64,000 nt of DNA from Acheta domesticus (taxonomy: Eukaryota > Arthropoda > Insecta > Orthoptera > Gryllidae): positions 51,196,421 to 51,260,420 of the forward strand of contig JAHLJT010003656.1 in NCBI GenBank assembly GCA_031308135.1. Direction: 5' to 3'. How positions within the stretch are numbered: the stretch's first letter is position 1; each line of letters opens with the position of its first letter. Both the position numbers and the translations under genes were made by a program. Below the pieces are notes generated by a model, which worked only from the letters and a program-made list of their open reading frames with translations, did not search any database and was not told where the DNA came from. Positions 1 to 25,071 of the stretch are shown in pieces.

Positions 1-2539
1 ACACTTTTTGGAAGTCACTTTTTTGTATTGTGAAGTGTAATATCCTTTTGTGGTTTTGTTTAGATATACTTAGTTTGTTAGTTAGTTTGTTTAGATATAC
101 AATATGCTCTTTAATTGTTACATTTGTTTCATTATTTCTTGACACAATCCACCATCAATCTTATTCTTTGCCCTTATATTATTTGATCAAAAAATCTTTC
201 CCCCTCTTCCTTTCTTCCTAATGTGTTCTTAATTCCTTTTCTTTGCTATTCAGAAAACCTAAGGCGTATCTATGAAAACCTAAAAAACTATGCTCTAATC
301 ATAATTTATTTAAGATAAAAATACTTCGGTGGTGGCTATAAAATTATAATGAAACATTAAAAACTGGGATTTTTAACTACAAAATATATTGATACAAGTG
401 ATGCATCCCAATATTATCAGCTGAAGTCAGTAATTTTAATTGTTAACTGAAAGCATTATGCAGCTTGTTGAATGCAATGAAAAACTGAAAAACTTAATAT
501 TTTCTTGCATCGTCCATAAATGGCTATAATCGAAATGGAAACTTTTATTCTTCCTCAAATTGCAAACTATTAGTCTTCCTCAAATTGTCATCTCTAAGTT
601 TTAGAATTATGCCTAATTAATTAAACATGAAGTCTATTTTCTGATTGTTATTTTGCTGAGAGATTCTACTTATAGTTTATAGTTAAGAATAATAATTCAT
701 TGTACATTATTGAGCAGTGATTACATTTAATATGTATTGACTAATAAATACTACTCTGAATAATACTCTAATTTACATATTACATTAAAAATGTGAGATA
801 ACAGTATTACAAAAAAATTTTTATTTAACAGCTACTTCAAATGTGTTATATCACATTTATTAAAGTGGACTTTAATGATTTTAACTGTTTAATGATTTTA
901 ATGTTTATAACTACGAATATGATTTTTTCTGTTAAAGCTGTAGATAATGTTTGCATCTCATTTAGATCAATAGATGCATTTCAAATGCAAAAGAGAATTT
1001 ATTTTATTTCAGAATGAATTGCATACAATAATTTCCAGATCAGATTAATACATTAATTAACTTCTATTATGTGCCTTGAACTATAGTTGAGAAAAAAATG
1101 ATTGTATAAGAGACATTAAAATTAGATGTATTTGTTATATTAATATGGTATGATAGTTAATATAGTATGGTGTCTAGATAATATGCCCTGCAAACAATCA
1201 TCAATCAACCAACAAATCATGGAAATGAAATTTCTGAAATTTCAAAGAAATATTTGAATTTATTATTATTTATTGGAGTATGAATTGCATTAAAGCTCTT
1301 GGAAATCATAAACTTGAACTTACAAGTAGATTGTACTGCCATGAATGAATTTTTTGATATTTGGGTTTTCTGTTTCATCTGTTTAGTAATCTTTCTACAT
1401 TTTCCATGCCTTTCAACAATGTGAAGCAACCAGTCAGTGCCATGTATTTACTTTTACCTTTTAAGTACTAGGTAGGAGTACAAACTGGTATTGACAATTT
1501 ACATCTGTACTCACTAGTCTTAAAACTTCAAAAAATTTAGCAGATTCATTTTTAACTGCAATTAAGTATAATAGATAAAACAAACACAATACTAGAAAAT
1601 TTTATTTTAATTTTGTAAACATCAGCTGTTAATAAAATTAAGGCCCACTCTTTCCTTCGTAATGTATGTTGAAAAAAAAATTTGTTGAGCAAGTGTAATC
1701 TGCAGCTTATAATTTACTCTACAGCTGAGAATTTATGCACATTTTCAGTCTAGTGTATAATAAATAGTGTAGAAACTTCAGTAATAGTAAATTCTTAAAG
1801 TAATTTACATAAATTTCTATCTTTTTCATTAATATATATTATTTATATCAGTACAAATTATCACTTTGATTTCTGAGTTCCTATGATCTGGAATGTCATC
1901 ATTTATATCATCAAATTTTGTATTATATTTTAGACACGACTGATTGTGTAACATATTGCGAGAATAATAATTAGCTACTCTGGCTAAGAAAGTATCACAA
2001 CTACTTATTTTCTCATTGTGCTGGTTAAGATATTGCCAAACCTGACAAAAAAAGTCTTGCTCCATATCTTCAAGGCTCTTGTCAATAAAAATGTTTTGGA
2101 TTTAAGACATTGAAATCTCACATGTTTAACAATTGTAGAGTCAATTCCTTGATAAGAATTCTTCATAAAAACTCTAAAACTTTCATGAATAGAGTTTTTA
2201 CCAAGACCTTGTATGACTAATTTTATTATAAAAAAGTAGTAATTATTATTTTATCTAGAAGAATAAAATCTATAAAAAATTAAAATAAGATTTAAACGTT
2301 TTGATACCCTACTAAAGTTACATTTTCACAGGTAAAAAAACTACCAATTTCATTCCTAATTTCTGAATTACTAATTAGTATTTCAGAAAGCAGTAATCGT
2401 TAAGTTATTGACAATGTTGTATTTTTTAATGTTCTATTCCTAAAAGTTGTTTTTAAAGTTAAGTGTCTGAAACCGGCCAGTGAAGAGTATTTATGGATTA
2501 CTGAAGTGATAAATATATTTCGTATATATTTAAATGCAG
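1..2539. other. AT-rich non-coding stretch
   Basis: No gene, RNA or repeat boundary could be recognised on either strand. Open frames are short, low-complexity and lack family motifs. A minus-strand frame of 78 codons at 1829-2065 has no recognisable domain. Confidence 0.5.
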
Positions 2540-2547
2540 GTAAAATA

Positions 2548-3326
2548 CAGTGGCGTAGCGTCAGGGGACGCTGAGATGCTGAGCATCCCCGTATATAAGA
2601 ACCTTAAATACTGTATTGATAATCTTACAAGTGGTCTGTTGAGCGAAACACGTTTTGTATTAATTTTAAATTGATTTCCTATGATTGAATTCGGCGGGAT
2701 GTTGAAGCTGGCCTCTGATTGCTTGGAAGCTAAAACACTTCTAGCGTCTGCCGCCAGATTGCGACGAGCAATGACGCATGCGCAGATGGCGAGATTCCCC
2801 TCTCCCCTCTTCACCCCTGGGCCCAGAGAAAACCAACTGCTTTACGCTAGCGTCTACTGCGGAAAGAAGCTCGTTTGTGCACGAGAGCGCAGCACACTTC
2901 AGGCGGTCAGTAAATTATCTTTCTCTCTCTCACTCGGGAGTCCCCGCTTGGTCATGGGTACAAACTGTAGAAATAATGCCCGACTACTATTTCTTAATTA
3001 ATATCCAATAAATTGTATTATCTCTTAAATAGATTACATATTATTTAAGTCTGCAATGTATAAATTAACAAATGGTCTTATTGTCATTCGCGTATAAGAA
3101 TTAAAGCTGAGCCATTGTATAATTTGCTTTCAAGACATCGGCAGCCCTGACTGCTGTGAGGATTTTGTGGGAAGCGCCTACATCGTCGTAAGCAATCGAG
3201 ATCGTGGAAGTAGTTAAAGTGTAACTGCCTCGTGTTGCGTTCGCCTGTTAGATGAAGTAGTTGATAGTGACATTTTGTGTGTTATTGTTGAGCATCCCCA
3301 AACGTGTGAGTCACGCTACGCCACTG
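2548..3326. mobile_element. Short non-autonomous hAT-type DNA transposon
   Basis: The element starts CAGTGGCGTAGCG and ends with the inverted counterpart CGCTACGCCACTG. The terminal CAGTGGCG form is typical of hAT elements. An identical 8-bp duplication, GTAAAATA, flanks it at 2540-2547 and 3327-3334, the size expected for hAT insertion. A subterminal TGAGCATCCCC block also appears at both ends in inverted form. No transposase is visible in the 779 bp, so movement would need an enzyme supplied in trans. The perfect duplication argues for a fairly recent insertion. Confidence 0.88.
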
Positions 3327-3539
3327 GTAAAATATGATATATGATAATATAATAATATAAATGTTGGAGTAATATAAATTATGAGATTGCTATTAAGATA
3401 AGTAGAGATGAAAAATCTCAAATGGCAAGAAAAGTGATAAGGATTTTTTTTATATTGTAGACGATTTTGTGAGCCATTGTACATATGTATTAAACAGGGC
3501 ATTGAACTTAGAGTTGAACTACTCAAAGGAGTTTCTGTA

Positions 3540-3960
3540 CATCAATTTTAACATTAGATCTAGGACAACAATTGGGCTGGGGAAATCTAACAGATGGAGT
3601 AATTGAAAGTGGTGTGAAAGTTTTCATGATAGCTGTTTCAGTGGAGGTGGAATGTGTTTCTTAAACTTTCATAATTGGCTTAATTCTTTGAGGGACATTT
3701 CTGCAAAGTATTTTGAAGAAGTGGGAAGACACTCAGGAAATGAAGCAGCTCATTGCTATGGTGGCTTTCTTGCAGTTCTATCTGCCTAGTGTGAAGAACA
3801 TCACACGCCTTACAAAGGTGTTCTTGTAAAGACTATAGCTTAATAGCTGGTAATGGTAATGCAAGTAAGAGTGAAGTTATTGAAGTTGTAAAGCAAAAAG
3901 GTTTTGCACCTAGAGATGATAATGAATCTGATTTTTTGGCTTTATGGTATGGTATGGTAT
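3540..3960 (+). pseudogene. RuvC-like Holliday-junction nuclease, prophage type, frameshifted
   Basis: Three successive frames together resemble the phage RuvC-like resolvase family. The first reads ILTLDLGQQLGWG near the start, like the DLGTTTGWA motif carrying the first catalytic Asp. The second reads a GGGM..FL.FHNWLNSL segment and then EAAHCYGGFLAVLSA. The third reads LIAGNGNASKSEVIEVV and DDNESDFLAL, like the family's C-terminal GNGxAxK and DDNEADALAL blocks. In a phage such an enzyme resolves branched DNA. Here at least two frameshifts and a stop break it. It lies directly upstream of the methyltransferase remnant in the same direction, as in some Rickettsiales prophages. A tandem TATGG repeat at about 3946-3968 ends it. 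Confidence 0.7.
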
Positions 3961-4038
3961 GGTATGGCTATGGTATGAATATTAGTAAAGATCTTAACAG
4001 TCTAAAAATCTCACAGAAAGTGGGAATTAAACGATAAA

Positions 4039-4665
4039 ATGGCAAATATTACTGTTTGCAATTCTCCATATAACATTGATTATGGTAGTAGCCAAGAAAG
4101 AGAAGATAAAAATATATTAAACAATAATCAAGGTGAAAAGTATGAGCTTTTTCTCTATATCTCTTCCCACATTTTAGCATACACCAAAAAGAGCAATTTA
4201 TATCTGTGTATCATCACCAGAGTTTTCAAACTTGCAAAAAGTATTTGAAGAAGCATCTGGTTGTTGGTCAACATTTATCATTTGAGCAAAGAATCACTTT
4301 ATGCTCGGAAGATCTGATTATCAGAGATAATACATAGCAATGCTCTATGAATGGAAAAGCAGCAATAAATGTGAGTGGTATGGTGGTAGAAATCAAAGTG
4401 ATCTGTGGTTTCATGATAAGCCAACAGATAACTCACTGCACCCAACAAGGACATCAGTAGAGCTAATGGAGAGAGCAATAGTAAACAGCAGTACACTGAC
4501 ACAGTACTTGATCCATTTAGTGGCTCTGCCAGCACACTGATTGCATGTGAGAGAACAGGAAGAATCTGCAGAACAATAAAGATAGATTCAAAGTTTGTAG
4601 ATGTCACCATAAAACATTGGCAAGTATAAATAGGTAGGAAAACTATTCTTACTGGTATTGGCAAA
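4039..4665 (+). pseudogene. Prophage DNA methyltransferase (N4/N6 type), broken
   Basis: The N-terminal part reads MANITVCNSPYNIDYGSSQ, matching the DPPYN catalytic block (motif IV) of beta-type amino-methyltransferases but with the Asp and first Pro changed to NS. About 100 codons on, in another frame, come GGRNQSDLWF, DKPTDNSLHPT and VELMERAIV. A further shift gives DTVLDPFSGSASTLIACERTG, the SAM-binding FxGxG block, and a tail of the form DSKFVDVTIKHW. The order (catalytic block first, SAM block last) is that of the beta class. Such enzymes modify host or phage DNA at short sites. Several frameshifts and the altered catalytic block mean it is dead. Neighbours on both sides are also phage-type, so this is a bacterial fragment and not an insect gene. 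Confidence 0.85.
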
Positions 4666-4685
4666 ACTTTTGCACAAATTTAAGA

Positions 4686-5190
4686 GTCAAGGGAGTTAAT
4701 AAAAAGAGAAAATAATGAAAAAAAGTGAAAATAACCTAGACAGAAAGGGCAAGAGAACTAGGAGTTTCAAAGCAATATGTCTTTTATTAACTAAAGAAAG
4801 GCAATAGTTGAATTGGAGAATAGTTTAATCAACTTAGAATCAGCAAATGAAGCAGTGGTAGCAATGTGAGATCCAAATCAGACACTAAGGAGGAAAAATC
4901 CAGAAAACACAAGTAATTTTCCAGATGTTGCTAAAAACTCAAATAAAAAATGAAATGGAATGTGGTAAACTGCATGACGCGAAAGCTAAAGCTGAGATAG
5001 TAGAACTTGTAGCAGTAGAGAAAGTAAAAACAAGCATTAAATGAAGCAAGAGTTGTAAGTACTAATTTACTTAAAATTCCAGAAAGAGTATTGGCCTAAC
5101 TGGCATTGGCGAATGATACGGAGAAGATCTAAGAAACATTGAGTGAGGAAATAAAAGATGCATAGGAAGGGTTGATGGAAAATACATTTT
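4686..5190 (+). pseudogene. Phage small terminase / Nu1-like DNA-packaging protein, copy 1
   Basis: Translation across frameshifts gives a helix-turn-helix-like start (ELGVSKQYVS), then MLLKTQIKNEMECGKL, a VELVAVEKVK block, and EARVVSTNLLKIPERVLA followed by LALANDTEKI and ETLSEEIKDA. The series of K(T/N)xIKNEME, KLxxAK, VxxLKIPxRV and ETLxxEI is typical of Nu1-type small terminase subunits, which bind viral DNA ends to start packaging. Several stops and shifts are present. A diverged second copy lies at about 12290-12790. The gene follows the methyltransferase remnant, in the same direction. Confidence 0.65.
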
Positions 5191-5698
5191 GATGACAGTA
5201 AATAATTTAAAACTACTAAAAAAGTTATTTATTAATTTAGTAAGCCTAATCCATATATTAGTTGTGATACTCATTTTAAGCAAATCTACTTGCTAAAAAC
5301 TTATTGCAAACTACTTGCTAAAAATTGTCTTTTGCCTTAAGTGACATGAAAGTGGAACAATTGCATCAGATAAAACTATAAGAAGTAGTGTACATGGTAT
5401 ATACCATATTTTAATGAGTTTAGCATAATAAATGCAAATCAACTTTTGAATAAGTATGATGTGCTCAATGAATCAAGCAAAGACATTAGCTAGAGTATTA
5501 ATATTGCAAACAAATAATAATGCATCATTCTATGACGAAGTAGAAAATAATGTTACAATTTCTACACTATCCATTGAATTGTTTGAAAAAGGTACGAAGC
5601 AAGAACGTGACTTAAAGCAGTGCCACACTGAATGCAAACTAGCATCTGTAAATGTGATTAGTAGGGCCCGGATAATTATGTAATTACACATTTCCTAA

Positions 5699-8322
5699 GG
5701 TAACACTATCAAGTCGAATCAACAATATATATACATACAACACAGGCTTCAGTGACCATACAGCACAAATTCTCAAACTCAAAATGGACACAGAAGTGAT
5801 TAAGGAAACACTTTACAGAGAAACTCGAAATTTCTCTCAAAAAAACTTTGACAAATTTAACTCTCTAATAAGTTCAGAAAACTGGGAGGAGGTATACAAA
5901 GCAACAGACACGAATACCAAATTTAACTTATTCATAAACATATTCCAAAGTTATTTCAACACTGTTTTCCCTCAAACACTGAAGAAAATAAAAAGCAAAA
6001 ACCACAAATCATGGTTAACACAAGGAATCAAAACATCATGTGAAAGAAAACAATACATGCATGAAAAAATCCTTCACAACGAATGTAGTTCTGAATTCTC
6101 ATCTTTTATTACAAAACATACAAAAATATCCTGAAGAAAGTAATTAAACAGGCCAAACTGTTAATGAACGATCATCGCATTGCCAGAGCACAAAACAAAA
6201 CAAAAGAAATGTGGAACATTGTGAAAAATACTCTAAAAACAGAAAACAGAAATACTAAGAACATTGAACTTCACTACAAAAACAATGTTCTGCGCAGCCC
6301 ACAGGAAATAGCAAACACATTCAATAGACATTTCTCAGAAATTGGTGAAAAACTAATTCACTGCAATTCATTAAATAATATAAACATGCAGTCAAATATC
6401 CGCACATTATCAAATGTAAATTCCATATACATTTCAGAAACTTCACCTGCAGAAATACAAAAAATCATTAATCAAATGAAAAACAAATATTCCACAAGAC
6501 TGGATAATATCTCTGACACCCTCATCAAATATACAGCAACAAACATAATAGAACTACTTGCTCACATTTGTAACCACTCCTTAATGATAGGTATCTTCCC
6601 AGAAATTCTCAAGAAAGCAAAAGTGAAGCCGTTATTCAAAAAAGGCAACACTCACGATCCCACGAATTACAGACCGATATTCTTACTATCTGGATTTTCC
6701 AAAATTCTAGAAAAGCTCTTTAATGATAGACTCAAAAGTTTTCTCAATTCTAATAACATATTGACAGAGGCTCAACATGGATTTAGAAATGGTAAATCTA
6801 CAGATACAGCTATCTTCACCTTTCTAAATGACATACTTAGTGCTCTACATCAGAAAGAAATCCCCATCGGTTTGTTCCTACACTTGTCCAGGGCATTTGA
6901 CATTATTGACCATCAGATACTGTTATCCAAACTTGAAATTTTGGGAATTAGAGGCATTGCACATCAATGGGTTAAATCTTACCTTTCAAATCGTTGTCAA
7001 GTAGTCACAATCAAGCATGTTAGAGATGAAAAGATTTCATCCCATTTTTCCCAACCTAAAACGATAAATAATGGAGTACCACAAGGATCAATTCTAGGCC
7101 CTACATTATTTCTCTTTTACATCAATGACATGCCCCTAACTCTACAAAAGAACAAAATGGTCCTATTTCCAGATGACACAAACATTATTATTAAAGCAAA
7201 TACTCAACAAACTCTACAAAAAGAAGCACAAACAGTTCTAGAAGCACTAGTAAAATGGTTTCAGGAAAATAAACTCATCATAAATACCAAAAAATACCAT
7301 CAAAAAGCCAACAACACAATTGATGATAAAAAATATGCCTGTACAAATTGCCCAAAAAACAACTTTCCTGGGTTTGACTATTCAAGATGATCTAAAATGG
7401 AACTCTCACATCACAGATCTAAACAACAAACTTACCAAGACATGTTATGCCATCTACATTCTTAAGTCAAATTCTAACTTGGATACACTGCGAACAGTAT
7501 ACTTTGCAAATTACACTCACATCTAAAATACGGAATCATATTCTGGGGAAATTCTCCAGAAAGTATTCACACTTTCATCATCCAAAAACGAATATTGAGA
7601 ACAATGACAAACACTCACAAATACGAATCCTGCAAACCACTTTTCAAAAAATTACAAATCCTACCGCTACCATGCGTGTACATTTTAGAAATATTAATCT
7701 TCACAAAGAAGGCACTTTTAGAAAACAAGGACTCTGTTACTCTAAACGCAGAAGTTCATAACTATGATACTAGACAAAAAAGAAACGTGCATGTCCCACA
7801 CAGAGAAACTTCACTCTTTCAAAAAAGTACCCTTATAGAAGTCATTACACTATACAACAAACTCCTAGTGAATTTAAAAGCTTAAACTCTGTACACACAT
7901 TCAAAAATAAACTGAAAGCTTTCCTGTTAAACCATACATTCTACAGTACAAAAGAATATGTACATCATAAACACGTATCTACCCAAATATAAACTAGTAC
8001 TAATCATTTTTATATACTCTGTTGCATGGTTTGAAACCCCCAAACTGACTGTTGAATGTAAGGGATGGACCCAGCCCAGGCATCAACTCATAAGAAGACT
8101 ACTTATTTATTTATTTTTTTTCTCTTTCTTTTTTCCTTTCTTTCTTTTTTTATTAGTATAGTTTTTCAATTTTAATATTCATTTCTTTTTTTCTTCTTTT
8201 CTGTATTTAATTCTTAGAAATATCTATATTGTACGTTTTATTATTATGTACATATGCTGACTTGTCATACATGGCTTATGCTGTATTTATGTGACAAATA
8301 AATATATTATTATTATTATTAT
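5699..8322 (+). mobile_element. 5'-truncated CR1/Jockey-like LINE (endonuclease tail, reverse transcriptase)
   Basis: The copy opens inside the C-terminal end of an apurinic-type endonuclease (GFSDHTAQIL, the SDH motif), then a linker with QTLKKIKSKNHKSWLTQGIK (5784-6134, frame break near 6134), then a reverse transcriptase at 6164-7390. The RT shows NYRPIFLLSGFSKILEK, QHGFRNGKSTDTA, NNGVPQGSILGP and FPDD. The first catalytic Asp of the LDLSKAFD motif is His (LHLSRAFD), so the copy is catalytically dead. The C-terminal part continues to about 7960 with frameshifts. The copy ends ACAAATAAATATA followed by (TTA)n at about 8297-8322, a simple-repeat tail typical of CR1-like LINEs. It lies inside the hAT element. 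Confidence 0.85.
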
Positions 8323-9009
8323 CCACGTTTTACGTCGATTAGTGGCCAAAAACGTTGAGTTTTTAGTACATATATTTACATATTTTGTCCGAAATTACAT
8401 ATATTTACATATTTTACACAAATGAACATATTTTTACATATTACTGGATTTTTCCATTATCCTATTAAAAAAAAATATAATTCTTTATTTTTTATTTCTG
8501 GTTTGGATAAGGAATCATCCAAACAAACAATTCAGCACTGTCAAACATTTTTTTCTGTAGCCTCCTCTCTAAAATGAAGCTATTATTACGTGCTAAAATG
8601 AGTGTATCCATAAATGACAACGGTATTGGAAGTAAAAGGGGAAGGCGACTATGCAATCCATAGCTTCTGTTCTGTTAGTTTTCAGCGCGAGTATTGCAGA
8701 GAACAGAAAGGAAGTTTGATTTGTGAAAATTATATCTTTAGCAGGCGATATCGCGCACCCACTTCACATATTTTAGAGGTCTCCTTTGACCTTGATACCC
8801 TTCACCAGAAACTACACGCACCAGTTCAAGAAGGGCCATTGACATTTTTCTTTCCTTGATTTTTACATGCGTCCCTCTACCGTTGTTCGTAAATTATCTC
8901 TTTGGACCAAAAATCTGAAGTAAAATCTCGCCGTGGAACTGATGTAAAAGGAAATCATATTGGCAAGGTTGTGATAGATTTAAAGAACATTTAAAAGTGT
9001 AAGTCTTAT

Positions 9010-9480
9010 TTTGTTAACTTGTGAAGTGTTACCCAAATGCAACCATCAAACTATTACAAAACTGTTTAACGATACAACGGGATTTTTGTGGCCTAATGAA
9101 TTTAAACATAATGTCTTCCTTCCAGTACTAGTGCAAGGCAGCAGAAGCCCTGCAGATATTGTTCCAAAATTACTACTTCTAACCTATCTTGTGAATGCGT
9201 TGTGTTTGCAGAACTGATTAGATCTCAGTTTGATAAAGTTGATGCATTGATTTCCAATACAAAAAAGGATTAACGAGATGGGGCACCTGGATTGACGCTA
9301 TGATCTACAATACTCAAAATTTTGATTTTGTAATATAAGTTACACATCAATTTGATTCTGAAGCTGCAGCATCTATAGGCATATCGAAGCAATTGTTTGA
9401 GACTCAAAAGCTGAACAACTATATTGCACCATTTTTCAGTAAGCAATACAATTCAATGCTTGTAAACATGTTCCCTGAAA
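9010..9480 (+). pseudogene. hAT transposase remnant
   Basis: Fragments in shifting frames include a segment reading LIRSQFDKVDALISNTKK and then RWGTWIDAMIYNTQNFDF. Together they resemble the hAT-transposase stretch in which a VD.LI.N.KK helix is followed by TRWGTW(I/L)DA. About 40 residues between them are missing and stops interrupt the reading. It lies inside the element bounded by hAT-type inverted repeats, which supports the assignment. No dimerisation domain was found. Confidence 0.5.
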
Positions 9481-9689
9481 TTTTCTAGTAGCTTTGGAAT
9501 TACCCCATCGGCAGTTGCTTCTTTAAAATCTGTTCATTTATGATTCGAGGTCAATAGGGGGATCTAGTGAAGAAAAAGAGGTCTTCCGTTCTGGAGAAAA
9601 ACCCAGGATTCGAAACAATTTGTGCTATTAGTGCAGTGCTATGAGGGGACAATTCCATCACACTGGATCCAGAAAATGGAGAAGAATAG

Positions 9690-9880
9690 AAAGTGTATTC
9701 GACATGAATGTTTAGATGCGTTTTTAAACAAATCCTTCATATTTTGCAGTCAAAATGCAATTCGTCATGTATCCTCTCCTCCGTCTTCTCTTTCTTTAGA
9801 GACCTCATTTATAACGATTGGTTGCATATTAGAGCCGCAAAGGGAAGGTATGCTACTAAAATAATATCGGAGATTATATA
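9690..9880 (+). repeat. Interspersed repeat shared with 36.4 kb
   Basis: The stretch with CTTTCTTTAGAG, CTCATTTATA and GATTGGTTGC, then AGAGCCG and AATAATA blocks, recurs in the same order at about 36395-36570 with moderate divergence. It shows two dispersed copies of one family. Element class not determined. Confidence 0.6.
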
Positions 9881-10468
9881 TGTTTTTTATTAATTCGGAG
9901 ATCGTTGAAAATAATAGGATTATGAGAACTATAATGTTTCATTTTGGTCTTTATATTAAGTACACAGAACATTATATACTAAGATAAAGGTATTTTAATA
10001 AAAAATAATTGTTATAATGATACTTAATGTTACATATTTCATACTTTTGAGTACATATTTCTGTATATTATAATACATATATATGTACATATTTTCCCAA
10101 TTTTTAGTACATAATTATCTGGGCCCTAGTGATTAGCAATGGTAGCAATAACACTATTACACCAAAAATAGATGAGGCAGGTGCTGATTTCCAAAAGAGT
10201 TCTTTAGTGTTGGTTGATGCTGAAGGCATAGAGGATGAATTTAATGCAGTTTGTGAGGCAAACAGAATAGGATATAACAGTGGGTGTTCTCCTGATCAGT
10301 TTAACATGGTATTCAGTATATCTTCCAACTACCAAATCTTTAACACGATAAAGGTGCAGAAGAATATAGAAAATCAGGGGATAAGCCAAACCCATCACCT
10401 AAAATTGTAGTGCTACAGCAGGACAATAGGAGTGTAGCTCCACCTTCACCTAGAACAGCAGAAATCAG

Positions 10469-11690
10469 TTGAGTATTATTCAGAACATTGCACTACCAAA
10501 ACCATCACATTCTTCTTTCCATTTAAATGGAGAAAAATCTGATGATGAAGCAGCTACAAGAGAACCTATTTATGCAACTGCAGGCCCAAGTAAAAAATTC
10601 TCAAAAAGAAGATTAGATGGTGAAATAAGCAATCAAAGTCCAGAGATGGAAAAGTCAAATTCTGAAGAAACATCAATTAAGAAAGGATCAGAAGATATAA
10701 TTTATGAACCATAAATCTGAATACAAAATTATGTTTTAAAATGTTTGGAAGGAAGTAATAGTGGAATAGACAATAGAAGTGCAGAGACAACAAGATCAAA
10801 CTCTCAAGTGAAAGAAATGATTGAGTCGTGTAGCCATCAAGGATGGGAGAATATAACATTCAATCCTGATAGTCCAGTTACACTTTCAACTAGCTCATCA
10901 AAACAATGTGATGATGAAGTTAATGAAGAAACCCCATTAATTAAAAAAGGAAAGAAAACAAACCAAACCTGGTTATGAGCAAAGGTTGCAATGCAGCAAA
11001 AAGAGTTTATAATTTTCAGTGTAACTGTGATTTTATTCAGCGCATCAGCGGGTGTGCTATATTTACAAGACAAAGCACAATTTGTTGTATTTTTTGCAAA
11101 CAGCCCTCTCTACATTACTACGCTGATGCAATTATGATAGCAATTACTTCATTACTTGCAATTAGAACAATATTTTGTGGAATAAAGCAATTTAAAGATA
11201 CTGAGGAACATCAAATACAGGTAAAGAATGCAAATGATGGTTTAAATAAAGTATTGGAGCACCACCCAAAGTGTAAAGTAATAAGATCAGTGAAACTGGA
11301 TCATAGCAATGGCACTCATTCAACTTAATGCTTGGGAAGGTAAAAACAGGCTTATTAATATTGACAAACAAGTAATTAGTAGAAGAAAAATAGTAGAATC
11401 AATAATCAAAAACAGGCCATTATTTACAGCATTTTTAAACAGTTTGGTTGCTGCAAATATAGTATTGCCTTTATTACTGTATATGGAAATTGGTATCAGA
11501 AGTGTACCAGAATGCTTTGATTAATGATGTATGGCTATCACTACATGTAGGCTCGAGTATACTTGCACTATCAATGACATGCCTTGGAGGACATAACTAC
11601 AGAAAAACGAATTGCACAAACTTGTATGTTCTGAGGAAAAAATTAAATGCAAAAAAGTTAATGTAAAGTTCATTGAGGAAATAAAGGAAG
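10469..11690 (+). pseudogene. Bacterial-type membrane protein remnant, several frameshifts
   Basis: A polar N-terminal region (10469-10714, then 10745-10970 in another frame) contains EPIYATAGPSKKFSKRR, DDEVNEETPLIKKGKK and other acidic patches. It is followed by hydrophobic segments recoverable only with frame changes: IIFSVTVILFSASAGVLYLQ near 11010-11070, IMIAITSLLAIRTIFCG near 11130-11180, SLVAANIVLPLLLYMEIG near 11430-11500 and WLSLHVGSSILALSMTC near 11530-11580. The layout is a soluble tail plus about four membrane spans. I do not recognise the family. Continuity with the flanking prophage-type genes suggests a bacterial origin. Confidence 0.5.
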
Positions 11691-12289
11691 GACACAAGTG
11701 CTTGAAGAAAACCACAGTAAAGCTGCTACATGCAGCAGTTTAATGCCAGAGCAAGTAGTGGTTGAATTTTATAACTACAAAGATGTAATTTATTTATTTA
11801 TTTCTCAAAAAACAGTAAAAACTGTATATGACGTGTGGGGAAAGAAATTTATCTGCGCACATTTTCTTGAGGGCCAGAATTAAAGGGAAAAAAAAACAAG
11901 AAAAAAAAAACGAAAAAATGAATTTAGAAAATAATTATTGTAGAAAAATCAAAATATTTGAAAAATGTTTTTTCCCGAGTTATAGAAAATCAATTTCAAC
12001 TGTAAATGAACTACAAGCAAAAGGAGTGCTCAACAAAACATGCGCACAGTGAAGCTACATTTACGTCCAGAAGCAAAACAAGGGGCCATCTCAGCATTTG
12101 CTCTATGGATCAGGGAAACTGGACAAAAACCTGATCGAGATGGGATAATTTATAGTATTAGTTGAAAGAACTTTTATAGCCTAATAATAAGCTTCACTTT
12201 ATAAAAAAGGAAGCAGCTATGGTGGAATAGTAATAACACCCAGAGCAAATAGTAGTGTAGAGCTTCACTCTACGCTAATAAAATATTTC
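11691..12289 (+). other. Degraded coding-like remnants of unknown type
   Basis: Short frames at 11698-11883 and 11828-12052 and a reading near 12040-12160 (LHLRPEAKQGAISAFALWI then RETGQKPDRDG) look like remnants of one or two small proteins. I recognise no family. They lie between the membrane-protein remnant and the second terminase copy, all on the + strand. Confidence 0.35.
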
Positions 12290-12790
12290 TAAAATGTTGG
12301 CAAGTATAAACAGGTAGGGAAACTATTCTTACTGATACTGGTAAAACTTTTGCATGCACTCAAGCCAAGACAGTTAGGGTTAAAAAGAGAAAACAAGGGA
12401 AAAAAATTGGAAAAAATAATGCAGACGGAGTGGGCAAGAGAGATAGGAGTGTCAAAGGAATTCCTCTGTTATTTAGTAAAAAAAGGAATAGTTAGTTGAC
12501 GGATGCTCTGACCAATAGAGAACAAGCAAATGAAGCAGTGGCAGCAATGTAGAGATCCAAGTGAGGAGGCAAAATCCAGAAAACATCCGTAACTTTTCCA
12601 TGATGTTGCTAAAAACTCGAATAAAAAATGAAATGGAATGTGGTAAACTGCTGGAGGCAAAAGGAGAACTTGTAGCAGTAGAGGAAGGAAAAACTGAAGA
12701 ATTTAATATAGCAAGAGTTGTACATATAATTTAATTAGCAGCACTGCTTGCATCACTGAGAAGGACTGGAAAGATTCATATGACGCTAAC
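12290..12790 (+). pseudogene. Phage small terminase / Nu1-like protein, copy 2
   Basis: This is a second copy of the segment at about 4612-5130. It begins with the same methyltransferase-tail sequence (TTGGCAAGTATAAACAGGTA) and continues with TEWAREIGVSKEFLCYLVKK, LTDALTNREQANEAVAAM, MLLKTRIKNEMECGKLLEAK, GELVAVEEGKTEEFNIARVV. The reading is cleaner than copy 1, with fewer shifts, but stops after AAM and near VVHI break it. In intact phages the protein recognises DNA for packaging. The duplication means either an internal duplication of the insert or two related prophages in the donor. Confidence 0.65.
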
Positions 12791-12839
12791 TAAAGATTAC
12801 AAACTGACTTGAAGAATCATTTAATGTGTAATAGTTTAG

Positions 12840-13545
12840 ACTTAATCTGACAAGCTGATAAAGTAAGATAAAAATATTAACAAATTTAAAAGGAATGTCA
12901 AATGTGAGTACAGCACAAGAAAAAATACTAAAAACCAAGGTTGGGATTGCTAGGACTTGCAAAGCAATTTGGAAATGTATCCCAAACGTGTAAGGTAATG
13001 GGATATTCAAGGGATTCATTTTACCACTTCAAAGAACAGAATGAAACAGGAGGAGAAAAAGCTTTACACTAGATAAGCAAAAGCAAGCCATTATATGCAG
13101 AGTGTCAGAGGATATAGAAAAAACATAATGGAAATAGCAATAAAATGTCCAATATATGGACAAGAAAGAGCAGCAAAAAAGAGAATTCTCATCTCTGCAA
13201 GTGGAATAAAATCAGTGTGGCAAAGAAACGATCTTGAAAATTTCAAGAAGAGGTTAAAAGCGTCAGAAACAAAGGTTACACAAGATGGCATAGTTTTAGC
13301 AGAAGGACAACTATAGCTCTGGAAAAGGCTAAAGAAGAAAAAGAAACCCATGGAGACATTGAAACAGAGCATTCAGGATATTTAGGTAGCCAAGACAGTT
13401 ATAATGTGGGTAATATCAAAGGTATTGGACAAATTTAACAGCAAACCTTTGTTGATACCTATTCCAGAGTTGCTTTTGCTAAGCCTTTTACAGAAAGGAC
13501 TGCTATCACAGCTGCATATCTTCTTAATGACAGGGTAGTAGACAG
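12840..13545 (+). pseudogene. IS481-type transposase remnant
   Basis: Readings across frameshifts give MSNVSTAQEKI, LAKQFGNVSQTCKVMGYS and RDSFYRFKEQNETGGE (helix-turn-helix region), then MEIAIKCPIYGQERAAKK, ASGIKSVWQRNDLENFKKR, and finally GNIKGIGQI with TFVDTYSRVAFAKPFTER and TAITAAYLLNDRVV, the start of an integrase-core domain carrying the VDxYSR motif. This order matches bacterial IS481-family transposases. The frame 13095-13316 is the longest uninterrupted part. The remnant ends abruptly at a GA-rich simple repeat, before the rest of the catalytic core. It supports a bacterial source for the whole 3.5-13.5 kb block. Confidence 0.75.
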
Positions 13546-13640: not shown

Positions 13641-15370
13641 AGCACTTGAGAGTAAGTAAACTGAATGTGTAATTTACCATTTACTTAGTATTTAGCATTT
13701 TATTTAATATTATTTATTCATTATTAGCAAATGTTTGTTCAACATATCAAGAATGCTTTATTGTCTTAATTTACACATCAATGAGTTTGAAATACATACA
13801 AAGAACTTAATATGTTTCTATAGTTATGGTAAAATGGAGAAAATACTTTCCAAAACACACCTTGAAACAGAATCTATGTATCCTTATTGATAGTTTTATC
13901 GAACATCAATAATAGTCTTACAAAAATAAACTTTTAAAACATGCTAATTATTAACAACATTTTTTCTTCTAATTTTTGCATCAATAAATATGCTAGATGA
14001 AATGTGTGCACTCGCATGTATAGTTGAATACACTTTTGTAAATGCATTTAAAACTACAAATATTAACTTGATAATATTTATCTTCACCATCTGTTAAATA
14101 TATTTTCAGCTACAAGATTTGTATTTTATTTGGGAACATTTTCTGTTTTGTTAGCTTTTTTGCTTACAAATGGACAGGTTCAAACTTGATATTTTGACAA
14201 TTATATTGATAATAATGTATTACAATTTTTAATGCAGAAAGAAGATTCTCGTTAGATTGAACATCTATTACACAAATTATATTTTAATATATGCATTAAA
14301 TGTATCAAAATTCGTAGCTAAAGCAATGTCTTCAAGACATCATTTATTTTAATTATCTAAATTAATATCATTTTCTAAGCTTCTGTTGGTTTTCCTTCAG
14401 AGCACGGGTGTCCAAATTGCATGGCCTCAAGGGCCACAACTAAATCCTTTTATACGACTGCAGGTCAGTTACTCAGGTGATCCCAAGGACGTTATATAAC
14501 ATGGAGGTGGCATGCCCCACCTTTCCCATTGCAGAAAATGATGTCAGCCACTTGCAAGCTTGGTTAGGCTTCCTGCCAAACAGTTCTCCCAAAAAGCCTG
14601 AAATCTACCTTTTTCCACCTATATATTTTATTTATTCATACTTTGACAAGGAAGATGTTTGATACATAATTATTTGTAATTAACAGACAGAAATATTCAT
14701 AGAATAAAGCAAACCAGACCTGGGAAAAATATTAAACCTCCCCAAAATTCATTAAGTGGCAGAGGAAATATATTAAAAAATTGTTTCATTTATTGCATGA
14801 AGCTGATTAGAATTTCATTTATGTGCTTGATGGCATGTTTTCTTGAAACAGAATTGTACCTTTCACTTCTTGGGAGTGAGAAATTACAATATCTTAAAAA
14901 AGAAACAAAAAAACAACAACAAATAACAGGGAACAGATTCTGAATGCAAGTGCTTTTAGAATGTTACATACAATATGCAAGGAGCTGAAACTAATGTCAC
15001 ACAAATTGATATTGTGAAAACTGCTAGTTATGGTCCAAATTTGACATAAGAAAATAATTAAGTTGTTATATTTGCAAGGAGCCTGAAAATTGAAAAATTC
15101 TGAAAGGAAATGGTTGAATTAGAATTGCCTGAGCAATTCTAATTCAGTTTTAATTCCTACTGACCTGAACAGAAGCATTCAGGTTTTTAATCACAGAACT
15201 GAGAAGAAATTTATACATGAATAAAATTATAAATCTGCTCAAATTTAGGTTTTCCTGAAGCCAATCATTTTCAATAACAAATTCCAAAACAAATATTTTT
15301 CAAATGCAAACAATATATTATTTGAAAAAAATAAAACAATAAATATGTATAAATAATACCAAATATACAT
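13641..15370. other. AT-rich non-coding stretch
   Basis: Nothing recognisable was found. A short GGGTGTCCAAATTGC...GGGCCACAAC motif at 14404-14440 is reminiscent of hAT-derived termini, but no partner end was found. Confidence 0.45.
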
Positions 15371-17403
15371 ATAAACATTGATGGGGTTGATATAAAGGAT
15401 CCAAAAAAAGTAGCAGATTCTTTTAATAACTATTATTCTAATATCGCTTCAAATATTTTCACCACAAACACACTTGGTAACACCAGTACTAACAGGAATT
15501 TCAGAAGTGTGGAAACTTTTAATATCAGTTCAATGTTCATAACGCCAACAAATGAATTAGAAGTGACTGCAACAATAAAAGGACTGAGTAATAAGAAATC
15601 CACAGGTGTAGATGAGATCTCAGATTACTTGGTAAAAAAATGTTGCAGTAACATAGTACATCCATTAACCCATATTATTAACTTGTCATTTCAAACCGGA
15701 AATTTTCCTGATCACTTAAAAATAGCTAAAGTAAAGCCACTATATAAGAAGGGGCTTGAAACAGAAATGGGAAACTATAGACCAGTCTCACTTTTATCTG
15801 TTTTTTCTAAAATTATAGAAAAGATAATGTATACTAGGCTTACTTCATTTTTAAGAAAGCACAAATCTATAACAAACAAGCAACATGGTTTCTGTAAAGG
15901 GAAATCTACCAACACAGCTACAATGGATTTCTTAGAAAGTATTTATCAGGCTGTTGATAAGAAGCACATTAGTATAGGATTATTCCTAGATCTTTCAAAG
16001 GCCTTTGATCTAGTTGACCATGATATATTACTGGATAAAATGGAGTTAATTGGAATACGAGGGATTGCCTATGATTGGTTTAAATCATTTCTTACCAACC
16101 GTAAACAAATGGTGGAAATTGTCCATACTCATGGAAATACCAAAACTGTTTCTAAATATCTTTCCGAAGTAAACCAGATATCATATGGAGTGCCACAGGG
16201 TTCAGTTCTTGGGCCTGTATTATTTCTTATATATATCAATGATTTGGGATATTATCTTAATGAAGGGGAAACAACATTTTTTGCCAATGACACAAGTATA
16301 TTTTTCACAGGTTAACCTCTACAGGTCATCAATCTTAATTTGAACCTCATTTGCATTAGAATTCTAATGCAAATGAGGTTCAAATTAAGATTGATGACAC
16401 TGTACACAAATTATGTGAATGGTTTGAGAGTAATAGGCTAATAATAAATAAAGATAAAACTACTGCAATTTCTTTTCATCAATCCCAAAATATAAATTTT
16501 GAATGTCCACCTATAAAGATTTACAACAAATGCATCACTTATATGGACCAAACAAGGTTTTTGGGGATTTGGCTAGACAACACACTGAAATGGAAACCAC
16601 ATGTTCAAGAATTAACAAAAAGATAGAGTAAAGTATGCTTTGCTTTACAATACATCAGGAGAACACTGCAAATAGAATCAACTCGTTTGTTGTATTTTGC
16701 TCATTTTCATTCTATCTTGTTGTATGGAATAATTTTCTGGGGAAATTCATCTCATGCCACATCCATTTTTAAGCTTCAAAAACGAGCAATTAGAATAATG
16801 ATGCAGGTTAGTAGAAGCACAAGTTGTAGACAGCTCTTTAAAACACTACACATACTACCATTACCGTGCCTATACATTTTTGAAACATTAATGTTTGTAA
16901 AACAAAATTTACAACTGTATACAAAGAAAACACTTGTACATCCCTATAATATAAGGAACAAAGAAGACCTGTTTGTAATACCTGTTAACACTAACCTATG
17001 TAAAAATAATTTCTTCCATACTGGACTTCGTTTGTACAATCATCTGCCCAAATACCTCAAAGACTTGCCTGAGCTGGGTGCATTCCGGAGAGGTCTGCAT
17101 TCCCTTTTGTCTAGTCATAACTTCTACAATGTGAACGAATTTCTAAATTATAAGACTATTTAGGGTAAAATGTGTGTTGGAGCAGAATGTGTCTATGATA
17201 TGTAATTGTTGTATGTAAAACCAAAGTTGCATTATGCACATCTATAAGCATATTGTATTTACAAGTTAGATATGAAAGTATTGTAGCCTATAAATAAGTA
17301 TCTTTGTAAATAATTTTGTTATGTATTTTATATTGTATTTAAAAATGACTTGTCCTATGTCATATGTTATGACCAACTGGATCAATACATATCTATCTAT
17401 CTA
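15371..17403 (+). mobile_element. 5'-truncated CR1/Jockey-like LINE
   Basis: A reverse transcriptase runs from about 15390 to 17163. Visible blocks are VKPLYKKG, NYRPVSLLSVFSKIIEK, QHGFCKGKSTNTATMDF, GLFLDLSKAFDLVDHD (intact first Asp) and YGVPQGSVLGPVLF. The catalytic FADD box reads FAND, which removes one metal-binding Asp. Reading stops at 16314, where a 74-bp palindrome interrupts it, and resumes as IDDTVHKLCEWFESNRLIIN. A C-terminal part (16687-17163) follows after another stop. The 3' end is marked by (ATCT)n at about 17386-17402. It belongs to the same broad clade as the LINE at 5.7 kb but is a separate family, judged by the different tail. Confidence 0.85.
16325..16398. repeat. 74-bp perfect palindrome inside the LINE
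   Basis: The left 37 bases are the exact reverse complement of the right 37, with centre AGAATTCT. The right half is LINE coding sequence, so the left half is an inverted copy of it. It sits exactly where the reverse-transcriptase frame breaks. Confidence 0.95.
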
Positions 17404-19218: not shown

Positions 19219-19373
<155 letters not shown>

Positions 19374-22300
19374 CAGCGGCAGCGGCAGCGGCAGCGGCAG
19401 CGGCAGCGGCAGCGGCAGCGGCAGCGGCAGCGGCAGCGGCAGCGGCAGCGGCAGCGGCAGCGGCAGCGGCAGCGGCAGCGGCAGCGGCAGCGGCAGCGGC
19501 AGCGGCAGCGGCAGCGGCAGCGGCAGCGGCAGCGGCAGCGGCAGCGGCAGCGGCAGCGGCAGCGGCAGCGGCAGCGGCAGCGGCAGCGGCAGCGGCAGCG
19601 GCAGCGGCAGCGGCAGCGGCAGCGGCAGCGGCAGCGGCAGCGGCAGCGGCAGCGGCAGCGGCAGCGGCAGCGGCAGCGGCAGCGGCAGCGGCAGCGGCAG
19701 CGGCAGCGGCAGCGGCAGCGGCAGCGGCAGCGGCAGCGGCAGCGGCAGCGGCAGCGCAGCGGCAGCGGCAGCGGCAGCGGCAGCGGCAGCGGCAGCGGCA
19801 GCGGCAGCGGCAGCGGCAGCGGCAGCGGCAGCGGCAGCGGCAGCGGCAGCGGCAGCGGCAGCGGCAGCGGCAGCGGCAGCGGCAGCGGCAGCGGCAGCGG
19901 CAGCGGCAGCGGCAGCGGCAGCGGCAGCGGCAGCGGCAGCGGCAGCGGCAGCGGCAGCGGCAGCGGCAGCGGCAGCGGCAGCGGCAGCGGCAGCGGCAGC
20001 GGCAGCGGCAGCGGCAGCGGCAGCGGCAGCGGCAGCGGCAGCGGCAGCGGCAGCGGCAGCGGCAGCGGCAGCGGCAGCGGCAGCGGCAGCGGCAGCGGCA
20101 GCGGCAGCGGCAGCGGCAGCGGCAGCGGCAGCGGCAGCGGCAGCGGCAGCGGCAGCGGCAGCGGCAGCGGCAGCGGCAGCGGCAGCGGCAGCGGCAGCGG
20201 CAGCGGCAGCGGCAGCGGCAGCGGCAGCGGCAGCGGCAGCGGCAGCGGCAGCGGCAGCGGCAGCGGCAGCGGCAGCGGCAGCGGCAGCGGCAGCGGCAGC
20301 GGCAGCGGCAGCGGCAGCGGCAGCGGCAGCGGCAGCGGCAGCGGCAGCGGCAGCGGCAGCGGCAGCGGCAGCGGCAGCGGCAGCGGCAGCGGCAGCGGCA
20401 GCGGCAGCGGCAGCGGCAGCGGCAGCGGCAGCAGGCAGCGGCAGCGGCAGCGGCAGCGGCAGCGGCAGCGGCAGCGGCAGCGGCAGCGGCAGCGGCAGCG
20501 GCAGCGGCAGCGGCAGCGGCAGCGGCAGCGGCAGCGGCAGCGGCAGCGGCAGCGGCAGCGGCAGCGGCAGCGGCAGCGGCAGCGGCAGCGGCAGCGGCAG
20601 CGGCAGCGGCAGCGGCAGCGGCAGCGGCAGCGGCAGCGGCAGCGGCAGCGGCAGCGGCAGCGGCAGCGGCAGCGGCAGCGGCAGCGGCAGCGGCAGCGGC
20701 AGCGGCAGCGGCAGCGGCAGCGGCAGCGGCAGCGGCAGCGGCAGCGGCAGCGGCAGCGGCAGCGGCAGCGGCAGCGGCAGCGGCAGCGGCAGCGGCAGCG
20801 GCAGCGGCAGCGGCAGCGGCAGCGGCAGCGGCAGCGGCAGCGGCAGCGGCAGCGGCAGCGGCAGCGGCAGCGGCAGCGGCAGCGGCAGCGGCAGCGGCAG
20901 CGGCAGCGGCAGCGGCAGCGGCAGCGGCAGCGGCAGCGGCAGCGGCAGCGGCAGCGGCAGCGGCAGCGGCAGCGGCAGCGGCAGCGGCAGCGGCAGCGGC
21001 AGCGGCAGCGGCAGCGGCAGCGGCAGCGGCAGCGGCAGCGGCAGCGGCAGCGGCAGCGGCAGCGGCAGCGGCAGCGCAGCGGCAGCGGCAGCGGCAGCGG
21101 CAGCGGCAGCGGCAGCGGCAGCGGCAGCGGCAGCGGCAGCGGCAGCGGCAGCGGCAGCGGCAGCGGCAGCGGCAGCGGCAGCGGCAGCGGCAGCGGCAGC
21201 GGCAGCGGCAGCGGCAGCGGCAGCGGCAGCGGCAGCGGCAGCGGCAGCGGCAGCGGCAGCGGCAGCGGCAGCGGCAGCGGCAGCGGCAGCGGCAGCGGCA
21301 GCGGCAGCGGCAGCGGCAGCGGCAGCGGCAGCGGCAGCGGCAGCGGCAGCGGCAGCGGCAGCGGCAGCGGCAGCGGCAGCGGCAGCGGCAGCGGCAGCGG
21401 CAGCGGCAGCGGCAGCGGCAGCGGCAGCGGCAGCGGCAGCGGCAGCGGCAGCGGCAGCGGCAGCGGCAGCGGCAGCGGCAGCGGCAGCGGCAGCGGCAGC
21501 GGCAGCGGCAGCGGCAGCGGCAGCGGCAGCGGCAGCGGCAGCGGCAGCGGCAGCGGCAGCGGCAGCGGCAGCGGCAGCGGCAGCGGCAGCGGCAGCGGCA
21601 GCGGCAGCGGCAGCGGCAGCGGCAGCGGCAGCGGCAGCGGCAGCGGCAGCGGCAGCGGCAGCGGCAGCGGCAGCGGCAGCGGCAGCGGCAGCGGCAGCGG
21701 CAGCGGCAGCGGCAGCGGCAGCGGCAGCGGCAGCGGCAGCGGCAGCGGCAGCGGCAGCGGCAGCGGCAGCGGCAGCGGCAGCGGCAGCGGCAGCGGCAGC
21801 GGCAGCGGCAGCGGCAGCGGCAGCGGCAGCGGCAGCGGCAGCGGCAGCGGCAGCGGCAGCGGCAGCGGCAGCGGCAGCGGCAGCGGCAGCGGCAGCGGCA
21901 GCGGCAGCGGCAGCGGCAGCGGCAGCGGCAGCGGCAGCGGCAGCGGCAGCGGCAGCGGCAGCGGCAGCGGCAGCGGCAGCGGCAGCGGCAGCGGCAGCGG
22001 CAGCGGCAGCGGCAGCGGCAGCGGCAGCGGCAGCGGCAGCGGCAGCGGCAGCGGCAGCGGCAGCGGCAGCGGCAGCGGCAGCGGCAGCGGCAGCGGCAGC
22101 GGCAGCGGCAGCGGCAGCGGCAGCGGCAGCGGCAGCGGCAGCGGCAGCGGCAGCGGCAGCGGCAGCGGCAGCGGCAGCGGCAGCGGCAGCGGCAGCGGCA
22201 GCGGCAGCGGCAGCGGCAGCGGCAGCGGCAGCGGCAGCGGCAGCGGGGGCAGCGGCAGCGGCAGCGGCAGCGGCAGCGGCAGCGGCAGCGGCAGCGGCAG

Positions 22301-25071
22301 CGGCAGCGGCAGCGGCAGCGGCAGCGGCAGCGGCAGCGGCAGCGGCAGCGGCAGCGGCAGCGGCAGCGGCAGCGGCAGCGGCAGCGGCAGCGGCAGCGGC
22401 AGCGGCAGCGGCAGCGGCAGCGGCAGCGGCAGCGGCAGCGGCAGCGGCAGCGGCAGCGGCAGCGGCAGCGGCAGCGGCAGCGGCAGCGGCAGCGGCAGCG
22501 GCAGCGGCAGCGGCAGCGGCAGCGGCAGCGGCAGCGGCAGCGGCAGCGGCAGCGGCAGCGGCAGCGGCAGCGGCAGCGGCAGCGGCAGCGGCAGCGGCAG
22601 CGGCAGCGGCAGCGCAGCGGCAGCGGCAGCGGCAGCGGCAGCGGCAGCGGCAGCGGCAGCGGCAGCGGCAGCGGCAGCGGCAGCGGCAGCGGCAGCGGCA
22701 GCGGCAGCGGCAGCGGCAGCGGCAGCGGCAGCGGCAGCGGCAGCGGCAGCGGCAGCGGCAGCGGCAGCGGCAGCGGCAGCGGCAGCGGCAGCGGCAGCGG
22801 CAGCGGCAGCGGCAGCGGCAGCGGCAGCGGCAGCGGCAGCGGCAGCGGCAGCGGCAGCGGCAGCGGCAGCGGCAGCGGCAGCGGCAGCGGCAGCGGCAGC
22901 GGCAGCGGCAGCGGCAGCGGCAGCGGCAGCGGCAGCGGCAGCGGCAGCGGCAGCGGCAGCGGCAGCGGCAGCGGCAGCGGCAGCGGCAGCGGCAGCGGCA
23001 GCGGCAGCGGCAGCGGCAGCGGCAGCGGCAGCGGCAGCGGCAGCGGCAGCGGCAGCGGCAGCGGCAGCGGCAGCGGCAGCGGCAGCGGCAGCGGCAGCGG
23101 CAGCGGCAGCGGCAGCGGCAGCGGCAGCGGCAGCGGCAGCGGCAGCGGCAGCGGCAGCGGCAGCGGCAGCGGCAGCGGCAGCGGCAGCGGCAGCGGCAGC
23201 GGCAGCGGCAGCGGCAGCGGCAGCGGCAGCGGCAGCGGCAGCGGCAGCGGCAGCGGCAGCGGCAGCGGCAGCGGCAGCGGCAGCGGCAGCGGCAGCGGCA
23301 GCGGCAGCGGCAGCGGCAGCGGCAGCGGCAGCGGCAGCGGCAGCGGCAGCGGCAGCGGCAGCGGCAGCGGCAGCGGCAGCGGCAGCGGCAGCGGCAGCGG
23401 CAGCGGCAGCGGCAGCGGCAGCGGCAGCGGCAGCGGCAGCGGCAGCGGCAGCGGCAGCGGCAGCGGCAGCGGCAGCGGCAGCGGCAGCGGCAGCGGCAGC
23501 GGCAGCGGCAGCGGCAGCGGCAGCGGCAGCGGCAGCGGCAGCGGCAGCGGCAGCGGCAGCGGCAGCGGCAGCGGCAGCGGCAGCGGCAGCGGCAGCGGCA
23601 GCGGCAGCGGCAGCGGCAGCGGCAGCGGCAGCGGCAGCGGCAGCGGCAGCGGCAGCGGCAGCGGCAGCGGCAGCGGCAGCGGCAGCGGCAGCGGCAGCGG
23701 CAGCGGCAGCGGCAGCGGCAGCGGCAGCGGCAGCGGCAGCGGCAGCGGCAGCGGCAGCGGCAGCGGCAGCGGCAGCGGCAGCGGCAGCGGCAGCGGCAGC
23801 GGCAGCGGCAGCGGCAGCGGCAGCGGCAGCGGCAGCGGCAGCGGCAGCGGCAGCGGCAGCGGCAGCGGCAGCGGCAGCGGCAGCGGCAGCGGCAGCGGCA
23901 GCGGCAGCGGCAGCGGCAGCGGCAGCGGCAGCGGCAGCGGCAGCGGCAGCGGCAGCGGCAGCGGCAGCGGCAGCGGCAGCGGCAGCGGCAGCGGCAGCGG
24001 CAGCGGCAGCGGCAGCGGCAGCGGCAGCGCAGCGGCAGCGGCAGCGGCAGCGGCAGCGGCAGCGGCAGCGGCAGCGGCAGCGGCAGCGGCAGCGGCAGCG
24101 GCAGCGGCAGCGGCAGCGGCAGCGGCAGCGGCAGCGGCAGCGGCAGCGGCAGCGGCAGCGGCAGCGGCAGCGGCAGCGGCAGCGGCAGCGGCAGCGGCAG
24201 CGGCAGCGGCAGCGGCAGCGGCAGCGGCAGCGGCAGCGGCAGCGGCAGCGGCAGCGGCAGCGGCAGCGGCAGCGGCAGCGGCAGCGGCAGCGGCAGCGGC
24301 AGCGGCAGCGGCAGCGGCAGCGGCAGCGGCAGCGGCAGCGGCAGCGGCAGCGGCAGCGGCAGCGGCAGCGGCAGCGGCAGCGGCAGCGGCAGCGGCAGCG
24401 GCAGCGGCAGCGGCAGCGGCAGCGGCAGCGGCAGCGGCAGCGGCAGCGGCAGCGGCAGCGGCAGCGGCAGCGGCAGCGGCAGCGGCAGCGGCAGCGGCAG
24501 CGGCAGCGGCAGCGGCAGCGGCAGCGGCAGCGGCAGCGGCAGCGGCAGCGGCAGCGGCAGCGGCAGCGGCAGCGGCAGCGGCAGCGGCAGCGGCAGCGGC
24601 AGCGGCAGCGGCAGCGGCAGCGGCAGCGGCAGCGGCAGCGGCAGCGGCAGCGGCAGCGGCAGCGGCAGCGGCAGCGGCAGCGGCAGCGGCAGCGGCAGCG
24701 GCAGCGGCAGCGGCAGCGGCAGCGGCAGCGGCAGCGGCAGCGGCAGCGGCAGCGGCAGCGGCAGCGGCAGCGGCAGCGGCAGCGGCAGCGGCAGCGGCAG
24801 CGGCAGCGGCAGCGGCAGCGGCAGCGGCAGCGGCAGCGGCAGCGGCAGCGGCAGCGGCAGCGGCAGCGGCAGCGGCAGCGGCAGCGGCAGCGGCAGCGGC
24901 AGCGGCAGCGGCAGCGGCAGCGGCAGCGGCAGCGGCAGCGGCAGCGGCAGCGGCAGCGGCAGCGGCAGCGGCAGCGGCAGCGGCAGCGGCAGCGGCAGCG
25001 GCAGCGGCAGCGGCAGCGGCAGCGGCAGCGGCAGCGGCAGCGGCAGCGGCAGCGGCAGCGGCAGCGGCAGC
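19374..25071 (+). repeat. 5.7-kb hexanucleotide array (CAGCGG)n
   Basis: About 950 near-perfect copies of the 6-bp unit are present. I see only a few interruptions: a one-G loss in the unit near 19755, 21075, 22613 and 24028, a one-base irregularity near 20433, and a GGGG run near 22245. Long open frames through it encode only Ala, Gln-Arg or Ser-Gly runs (plus strand) or Leu-Pro, Arg-Cys or Ala runs (minus strand), and are by-products of the repeat, not genes. CAG and CGG triplets are both able to fold, so strong hairpin formation is expected. The array is GC-rich in an AT-rich setting. Confidence 0.97.

Follow-up and report, generated by a model that had tools for sequence, protein, structure and literature searches.

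The locus

The window analysed here is a stretch of 64,000 nucleotides, positions 51196421-51260420 of the 130-Mb contig C2357, in a genome of 2,328,301,720 bases. Near its left end lies a block of 11,869 bases (1672-13540), composed of ~6.2 kb of DNA from phage WO of Wolbachia and ~5.6 kb contributed by three later insertions. The WO part holds, in order, remnants of a sigma-70-type sigma factor gene (minus strand), a RuvC-like resolvase gene, the 3′ half of a methylase gene, a terminase small subunit gene (copy a), a 620-residue Wolbachia gene here termed ORF620, a second methylase tail with a second terminase small subunit gene (copy b), and an IS481-type transposase gene (Table 1); names are taken from the intact WO relatives. 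We put at about 95% the probability that 1672-13540 is a piece of phage WO lying in the nuclear DNA of a eukaryote, likely an arthropod, predicted to have entered the germline from Wolbachia by end joining, and whose genes decayed afterwards, likely free of selection.

WO identity and extent of the block

A sequence-only reading of the window had named five bacterial or phage gene remnants and guessed a Wolbachia WO prophage as their donor. All five coincide with DNA matches to phage WO, their names hold for the intact WO relatives, and the guessed donor is borne out by both DNA and protein matches. Searched against 50,697 phage records, 3540-5661 gave 11 matches, ten to Wolbachia and one, short, to a Lachnospiraceae methylase, while every one of the 11 matches of 10129-13545 was to Wolbachia. 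The best matches found were to WO phages and not to eukaryotic genes. Identity to WO across the block is ~67-87% (DNA matches); blastn E-values as low as 0 and a gene order collinear with WO argue against chance. Identity was settled by these DNA searches against phages, family scans of single pieces being weak: on 10 broken window pieces Pfam gave two N6_N4_Mtase matches, one above its cut-off, and matches to WWE, DUF3882 and EBA-175, all under their cut-offs, were dismissed as chance.

The borders had to be moved. The earlier reading placed the block at 3540-13545 and took the left-hand element for a neighbour. The stretch 1672-2547, however, matches WO record MN180251, the stretch 3323-3944 continues on it, and the two are contiguous there; HQ906664 is a second WO record with the same continuity. 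The element at 2548-3326 is therefore inside WO DNA and the block starts at 1672. Its right edge, at ~13540, falls inside the IS481-type transposase. With the references used, neither the 20 kb left of the window nor the part of the window right of 13540 gave any WO match. Also missing from the earlier list were the sigma-70-type gene, ORF620 and the third eukaryotic insertion, at 11794-12145.

The intact WO relative of the RuvC-like remnant scores below the Pfam cut-off and matches phrog_159 at 9.6e-28; a TATGG microsatellite has grown within the remnant (3943-3977). The methylase piece has 80% identity to WOVitB over 54 residues, and its gene lacks the 5′ half, the match skipping ~640 bp in WOVitA1. 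The two terminase copies differ by 25.2%; in 295 invariant columns they have five derived changes in common and 36 and 20 private ones, and with so few common changes against so many private ones the doubling probably predates the transfer and was probably already present in the donor. In WOVitB too the IS481-type transposase comes after the terminase small subunit; its frame there, itself truncated, matches NF033577 at 2.9e-51, its 174.7 bits falling short of the curated cut-off (224).

ORF620 has no family match in Pfam, NCBIfam or PHROGs. It has 131 relatives, 120 of them listed; of these 120, all that carry a name come from Wolbachia, apart from one of a Rickettsia endosymbiont. No second copy of the part at 10137-11785 was found in the window's own genome. 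A scan of IMG/VR with the window's piece confirmed no locus, and one with the intact WOVitA2 protein found three loci. In locus L003, ORF620 occupies 7973-9835; in WOVitA2 and in L017/L018 a methylase-tail piece flanks ORF620 on both sides.

Eukaryotic insertions

Three eukaryotic elements cut the WO block. On either side of each stands a copy of an 8-bp target site that intact WO has only once (three of three), a duplication which an assembly join cannot produce. The sequence-only reading had named an assembly error as the finding that would undo it; the duplications, and the empty sites in intact WO, speak against one. At the insertion sites the blast matches overlap by exactly 8 bp for two elements and by 12 bp for element 1.

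That reading also saw the block as split by a hAT element and a long interspersed nuclear element (LINE). The LINE stands, with a reverse transcriptase domain (RVT_1), and the named matches in its protein searches are to the termite Cryptotermes, the cockroach Periplaneta, bees, spiders, an aphid, fish and a few bacterial or symbiont records; an arthropod host is consistent with these relatives. The hAT assignment rests on hAT hallmarks in elements 1 and 2, namely the 8-bp target duplication and terminal inverted repeats; as the five pieces scanned showed no transposase domain and both may be non-autonomous, we call them hAT-like. Element 3 is dispersed in the window's own genome, where it accounts, at 92-97%, for 41 of the query's 42 matches, a copy count that is a lower bound since 40 of 1,153 candidates were scored. 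It has no match among plasmids.

Table 1. Features of the WO block and the elements inserted in it, by window position
Feature	Position	Strand	Evidence
Sigma-70-type sigma factor remnant and WO DNA; left edge of block at 1672	1672-2547	-	blastn 84% to MN180251 (L001 9476-10381), also HQ906664; intact gene matches Sigma70_r2 / sigma70-ECF
Target-site duplication GTAAAATA	2540-2547 and 3327-3334		Single in L001
hAT-like element 1, 779 bp, ends CAGTGGCGTAGC	2548-3326		Sequence; inside WO DNA
WO spacer	3335-3541	+	76% to L001 at 10384
RuvC-like resolvase remnant	3542-4024	+	67-83% to WO or Wolbachia loci
WO methylase gene, 3′ half	4027-4626	+	N6_N4_Mtase, 1.3e-6
Terminase small subunit remnant, copy a	4700-5128	+	67-86% to WO or Wolbachia loci; intact gene phrog_57, 6.3e-31
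ORF620 remnant, 5′ part	5395-5661	+	77-78% to WOVitA2, IMG/VR L017, L018
Target-site duplication GTGATTAG	5654-5661 and 10129-10136		Single in L003, L017, L018
hAT-like element 2, ends TAGGGCCC..GGGCCCTA, split by LINE	5662-10128		Sequence
LINE within hAT-like element 2	5736-8316 (approximate, by eye)	+	RVT_1, 7.8e-33
ORF620 remnant, remainder	10137-11793	+	79-81% DNA to WOVitA2, L017, L018
8-bp duplication TAATTTAT around element 3	11786-11793 and 12146-12153		Single in L019, L003
Element 3, dispersed host repeat, TTTA-rich end	11794-12145	- (strand inferred)	Own-genome matches
Methylase tail, second copy, and terminase small subunit copy b (from 12290)	12154-12825	+	DNA matches to WO
IS481-type transposase remnant, cut at right edge of block	12880-13540	+	87% DNA to WOVitB

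Decay and age

Changes private to the window were counted by codon position in a three-way test on six gene pieces, which supersedes an earlier pairwise set made with permissive gap settings. At positions 1/2/3 the window has 157/144/189 private changes in 1201/1207/1201 sites (13.1/11.9/15.7%), whereas WO references compared among themselves over the same pieces have 40/31/119 (3.3/2.6/9.9%). Without ORF620 the values are 11.3/10.0/15.4% for the window and 4.3/2.5/17.4% for the references. Frame-breaking indels are present in each of the seven gene remnants, as counted under the permissive gap settings. The window's branch is thus near-neutral, its change mostly neutral decay, in agreement with the old, decayed transfer that the sequence-only reading had proposed. 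We infer that the block has no present function.

An assumed rate of ~3e-9 changes per site per year, which is not host-specific, turns the ~12% change into roughly 40 million years; the transfer is probably tens of millions of years old, and an error of three-fold either way would be easy.

A second WO block in the genome

The genome holds at least two WO blocks. On C5460, 17,011,893-17,033,632 is WO DNA, interrupted, with best matches at ~77-90%; the matched WO stretches carry annotations for VrlC, ankyrin, tail, baseplate, minor capsid, portal, terminase and methylase genes, and the block stops before RuvC. It is followed by a second, partial copy at 17,040,423-17,044,692 (the whole region, 17011893-17044692, comprises loci L126, L120, L121 and L122). 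The copies are 98.3% alike over 5.6 kb, a likeness that extends beyond the WO part, taking in adjoining sequence that contains a dispersed repeat, and so marks the second copy as a later duplication. A repeat at 49515-50562 of the window also occurs beside this WO block, at 94.7%.

Of the five WO references used, wKue is the nearest to the C5460 block, at a difference of 8.2%; the largest difference is 11.7%, and among themselves the references differ by 6.5-9.4%. Change at codon positions 1/2/3 is 5.1/3.1/11.0% in its methylase, 3.2/1.9/7.7% in its terminase small subunit and 3.6/3.2/11.4% in its terminase large subunit: it keeps a coding pattern of change, yet the terminase large subunit is also broken.

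Window and C5460 blocks, sharing a genome and both including methylase and terminase small subunit genes, might descend from one transfer that was later copied, with the window's copy decaying faster. We think this improbable, though it fares best among the alternatives. The two blocks are 21% apart, further than the window is from the five WO references (16.6-19.9%) and far beyond the distance of C5460 from them (8.2-11.7%). In 882 columns that are invariant in the five references, they have only two derived changes in common and two more columns in which both are changed but differ; 102 changes are private to the window and 34 are common to the two C5460 copies only. The failure to find a second ORF620 copy in the genome and the coding pattern retained on C5460 also go against a single transfer. 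The C5460 block is likely an independent and later transfer.

Donor haplotype

A methylase tree was built from 22 loci and the window; L003 was left out of the 23 given, its match being under 600 bases, and four rows stem from two contigs (L017/L028 and L018/L020). The window groups inside a WO clade of 15 rows (support 100/100), on an end branch of 0.27, the longest there (median 0.06). Among the 14 other rows, the five that are named are all phage WO or Wolbachia, and the other nine are IMG/VR contigs.

A WO-like prophage of some other member of the Rickettsiales, such as Rickettsia, is an unlikely donor, slightly more so than a single copied transfer is an unlikely history. It would accommodate the ORF620 relative from the Rickettsia endosymbiont of Ceutorhynchus assimilis (68%), but the window's ORF620 pieces score 605 bits with that protein against 812 with P0265, which has no organism label, and 799 with P0262, the best named Wolbachia protein; the named rows of the methylase clade likewise point to Wolbachia.

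For a Wolbachia donor, we compared gene order with 107 loci. A close sigma module is found in MN180251 among these loci, and also in record HQ906664; ORF620 is found in six of the loci, on four contigs; a close IS481 is found in WOVitB only. HQ906664 has neither an ORF620 nor an IS481 match. The haplotypes of WOVitA2, WOVitB, MN180251 and HQ906664 each have part of the window's gene order, and in none of the WO loci compared do the sigma module, ORF620 and IS481 occur together, so the donor haplotype is not among them. As read from the remnants, the putative donor is a WO haplotype outside those compared, a mosaic of modules known from separate phages. Its order (sigma, RuvC, methylase, terminase small subunit, ORF620, second terminase copy, IS481) would unite modules that are separate in the compared loci.

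Nuclear residence

A contig of living Wolbachia misjoined to host DNA is very improbable, more so than a donor other than Wolbachia. What speaks for it is that the edges at 1672 and 13540 are seen in the assembly only. A misjoin does not account for three eukaryotic elements that sit within WO DNA between duplicated target sites, one being a repeat dispersed in the window's own genome, nor for frame-breaking indels in all seven remnants (permissive gap settings), near-neutral change and a contig of 130 Mb. Least probable of all, to the point of being negligible, is that part of the block was domesticated and its product is still made in the host, given the broken frames and the near-even change over codon positions; nothing was found in its favour.

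Some observations do weigh against a nuclear WO block decaying without selection. Besides the two edges just mentioned, the five pieces scanned, four from element 2 and one from element 1, yielded no hAT transposase domain, and support inside the WO clade does not fix the window's place. Codon positions in the window are not fully even (p = 0.034 for the six pieces and p = 0.019 without ORF620). Such a third-position excess is expected if the window's branch was partly spent in living phage, in which case the neutral share of change would be below 12%. Finally, ORF620 changes evenly between living phages too (~2%) and is less informative than the other genes.

Entry and relation to known transfers

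The route by which WO DNA would have reached the nucleus can be sketched from the block itself. Probably a fragment of Wolbachia DNA was caught in the repair of a germ-cell break by end joining. Placement by a phage recombinase seems unlikely, because the block terminates on the right within the IS481 gene and on the left within a spacer next to the sigma gene. After arrival, the WO genes lost function and eukaryotic elements landed in the WO DNA.

Transfer of Wolbachia and WO DNA to hosts is well documented (PMC4675112, PMC8962096, PMC3998919, PMC12693587, PMC5062602). In the grasshopper Chorthippus parallelus, nuclear DNA likewise includes WO, with at least three WO haplotypes and DNA from two Wolbachia supergroups; its orf7 alleles are coding except one, whereas decay has gone much further in the window's block, which eukaryotic elements interrupt (PMC4675112). 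The Wolbachia-free woodwasp Sirex noctilio has 12 Wolbachia genes, 11 of them broken and many phage- or transposon-derived, in transfers that the authors judged not recent; unlike these, as there described, the window has one WO block with nested insertions, target-site duplications and a measure of decay by codon position (PMC8962096). In the tsetse Glossina morsitans morsitans, prophage genes lie within inserted, partly pseudogenised Wolbachia DNA, and the coding genes tabulated there are 97.9-99.7% identical to the resident strain, compared with ~67-87% to known WO in the window (PMC3998919). Nuclear Wolbachia transfers (NUWTs) of nematodes are described as neutral relics that record past infections, with more than one lineage per genome; the present case differs from that description in its likely arthropod host, in being phage DNA and in having two decay classes compared by codon position (PMC12693587, PMC4046930).

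Transfer from Wolbachia to hosts is thus already known; the value of the present case is in its two fossil layers of WO, of which the older shows a gene order absent from the compared WO loci. We lean, at slightly better than even odds, towards one arthropod genome with two WO time layers, one ancient (tens of millions of years, with a mosaic haplotype known from no living strain) and one young that retains a coding pattern. If true, the two layers would record, as fossils that can be dated, how phage genes were shuffled inside Wolbachia. Phage DNA trapped in a host chromosome changes at the host's neutral rate and can therefore date a phage gene order that existed when it was trapped. The genome suggests that the host lineage had at least one ancient encounter with WO-carrying Wolbachia and likely a further one since.

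Other features of the window

Two more LINE-type remnants with reverse transcriptase domains lie at 15353-16315 and 54979-57821, the latter having, in a public assembly, a relative at 93% across half of its length. Between them, 19373-25071 holds ~951 copies of the hexamer GCAGCG (99% match, 5.7 kb), over which all six frames are open.

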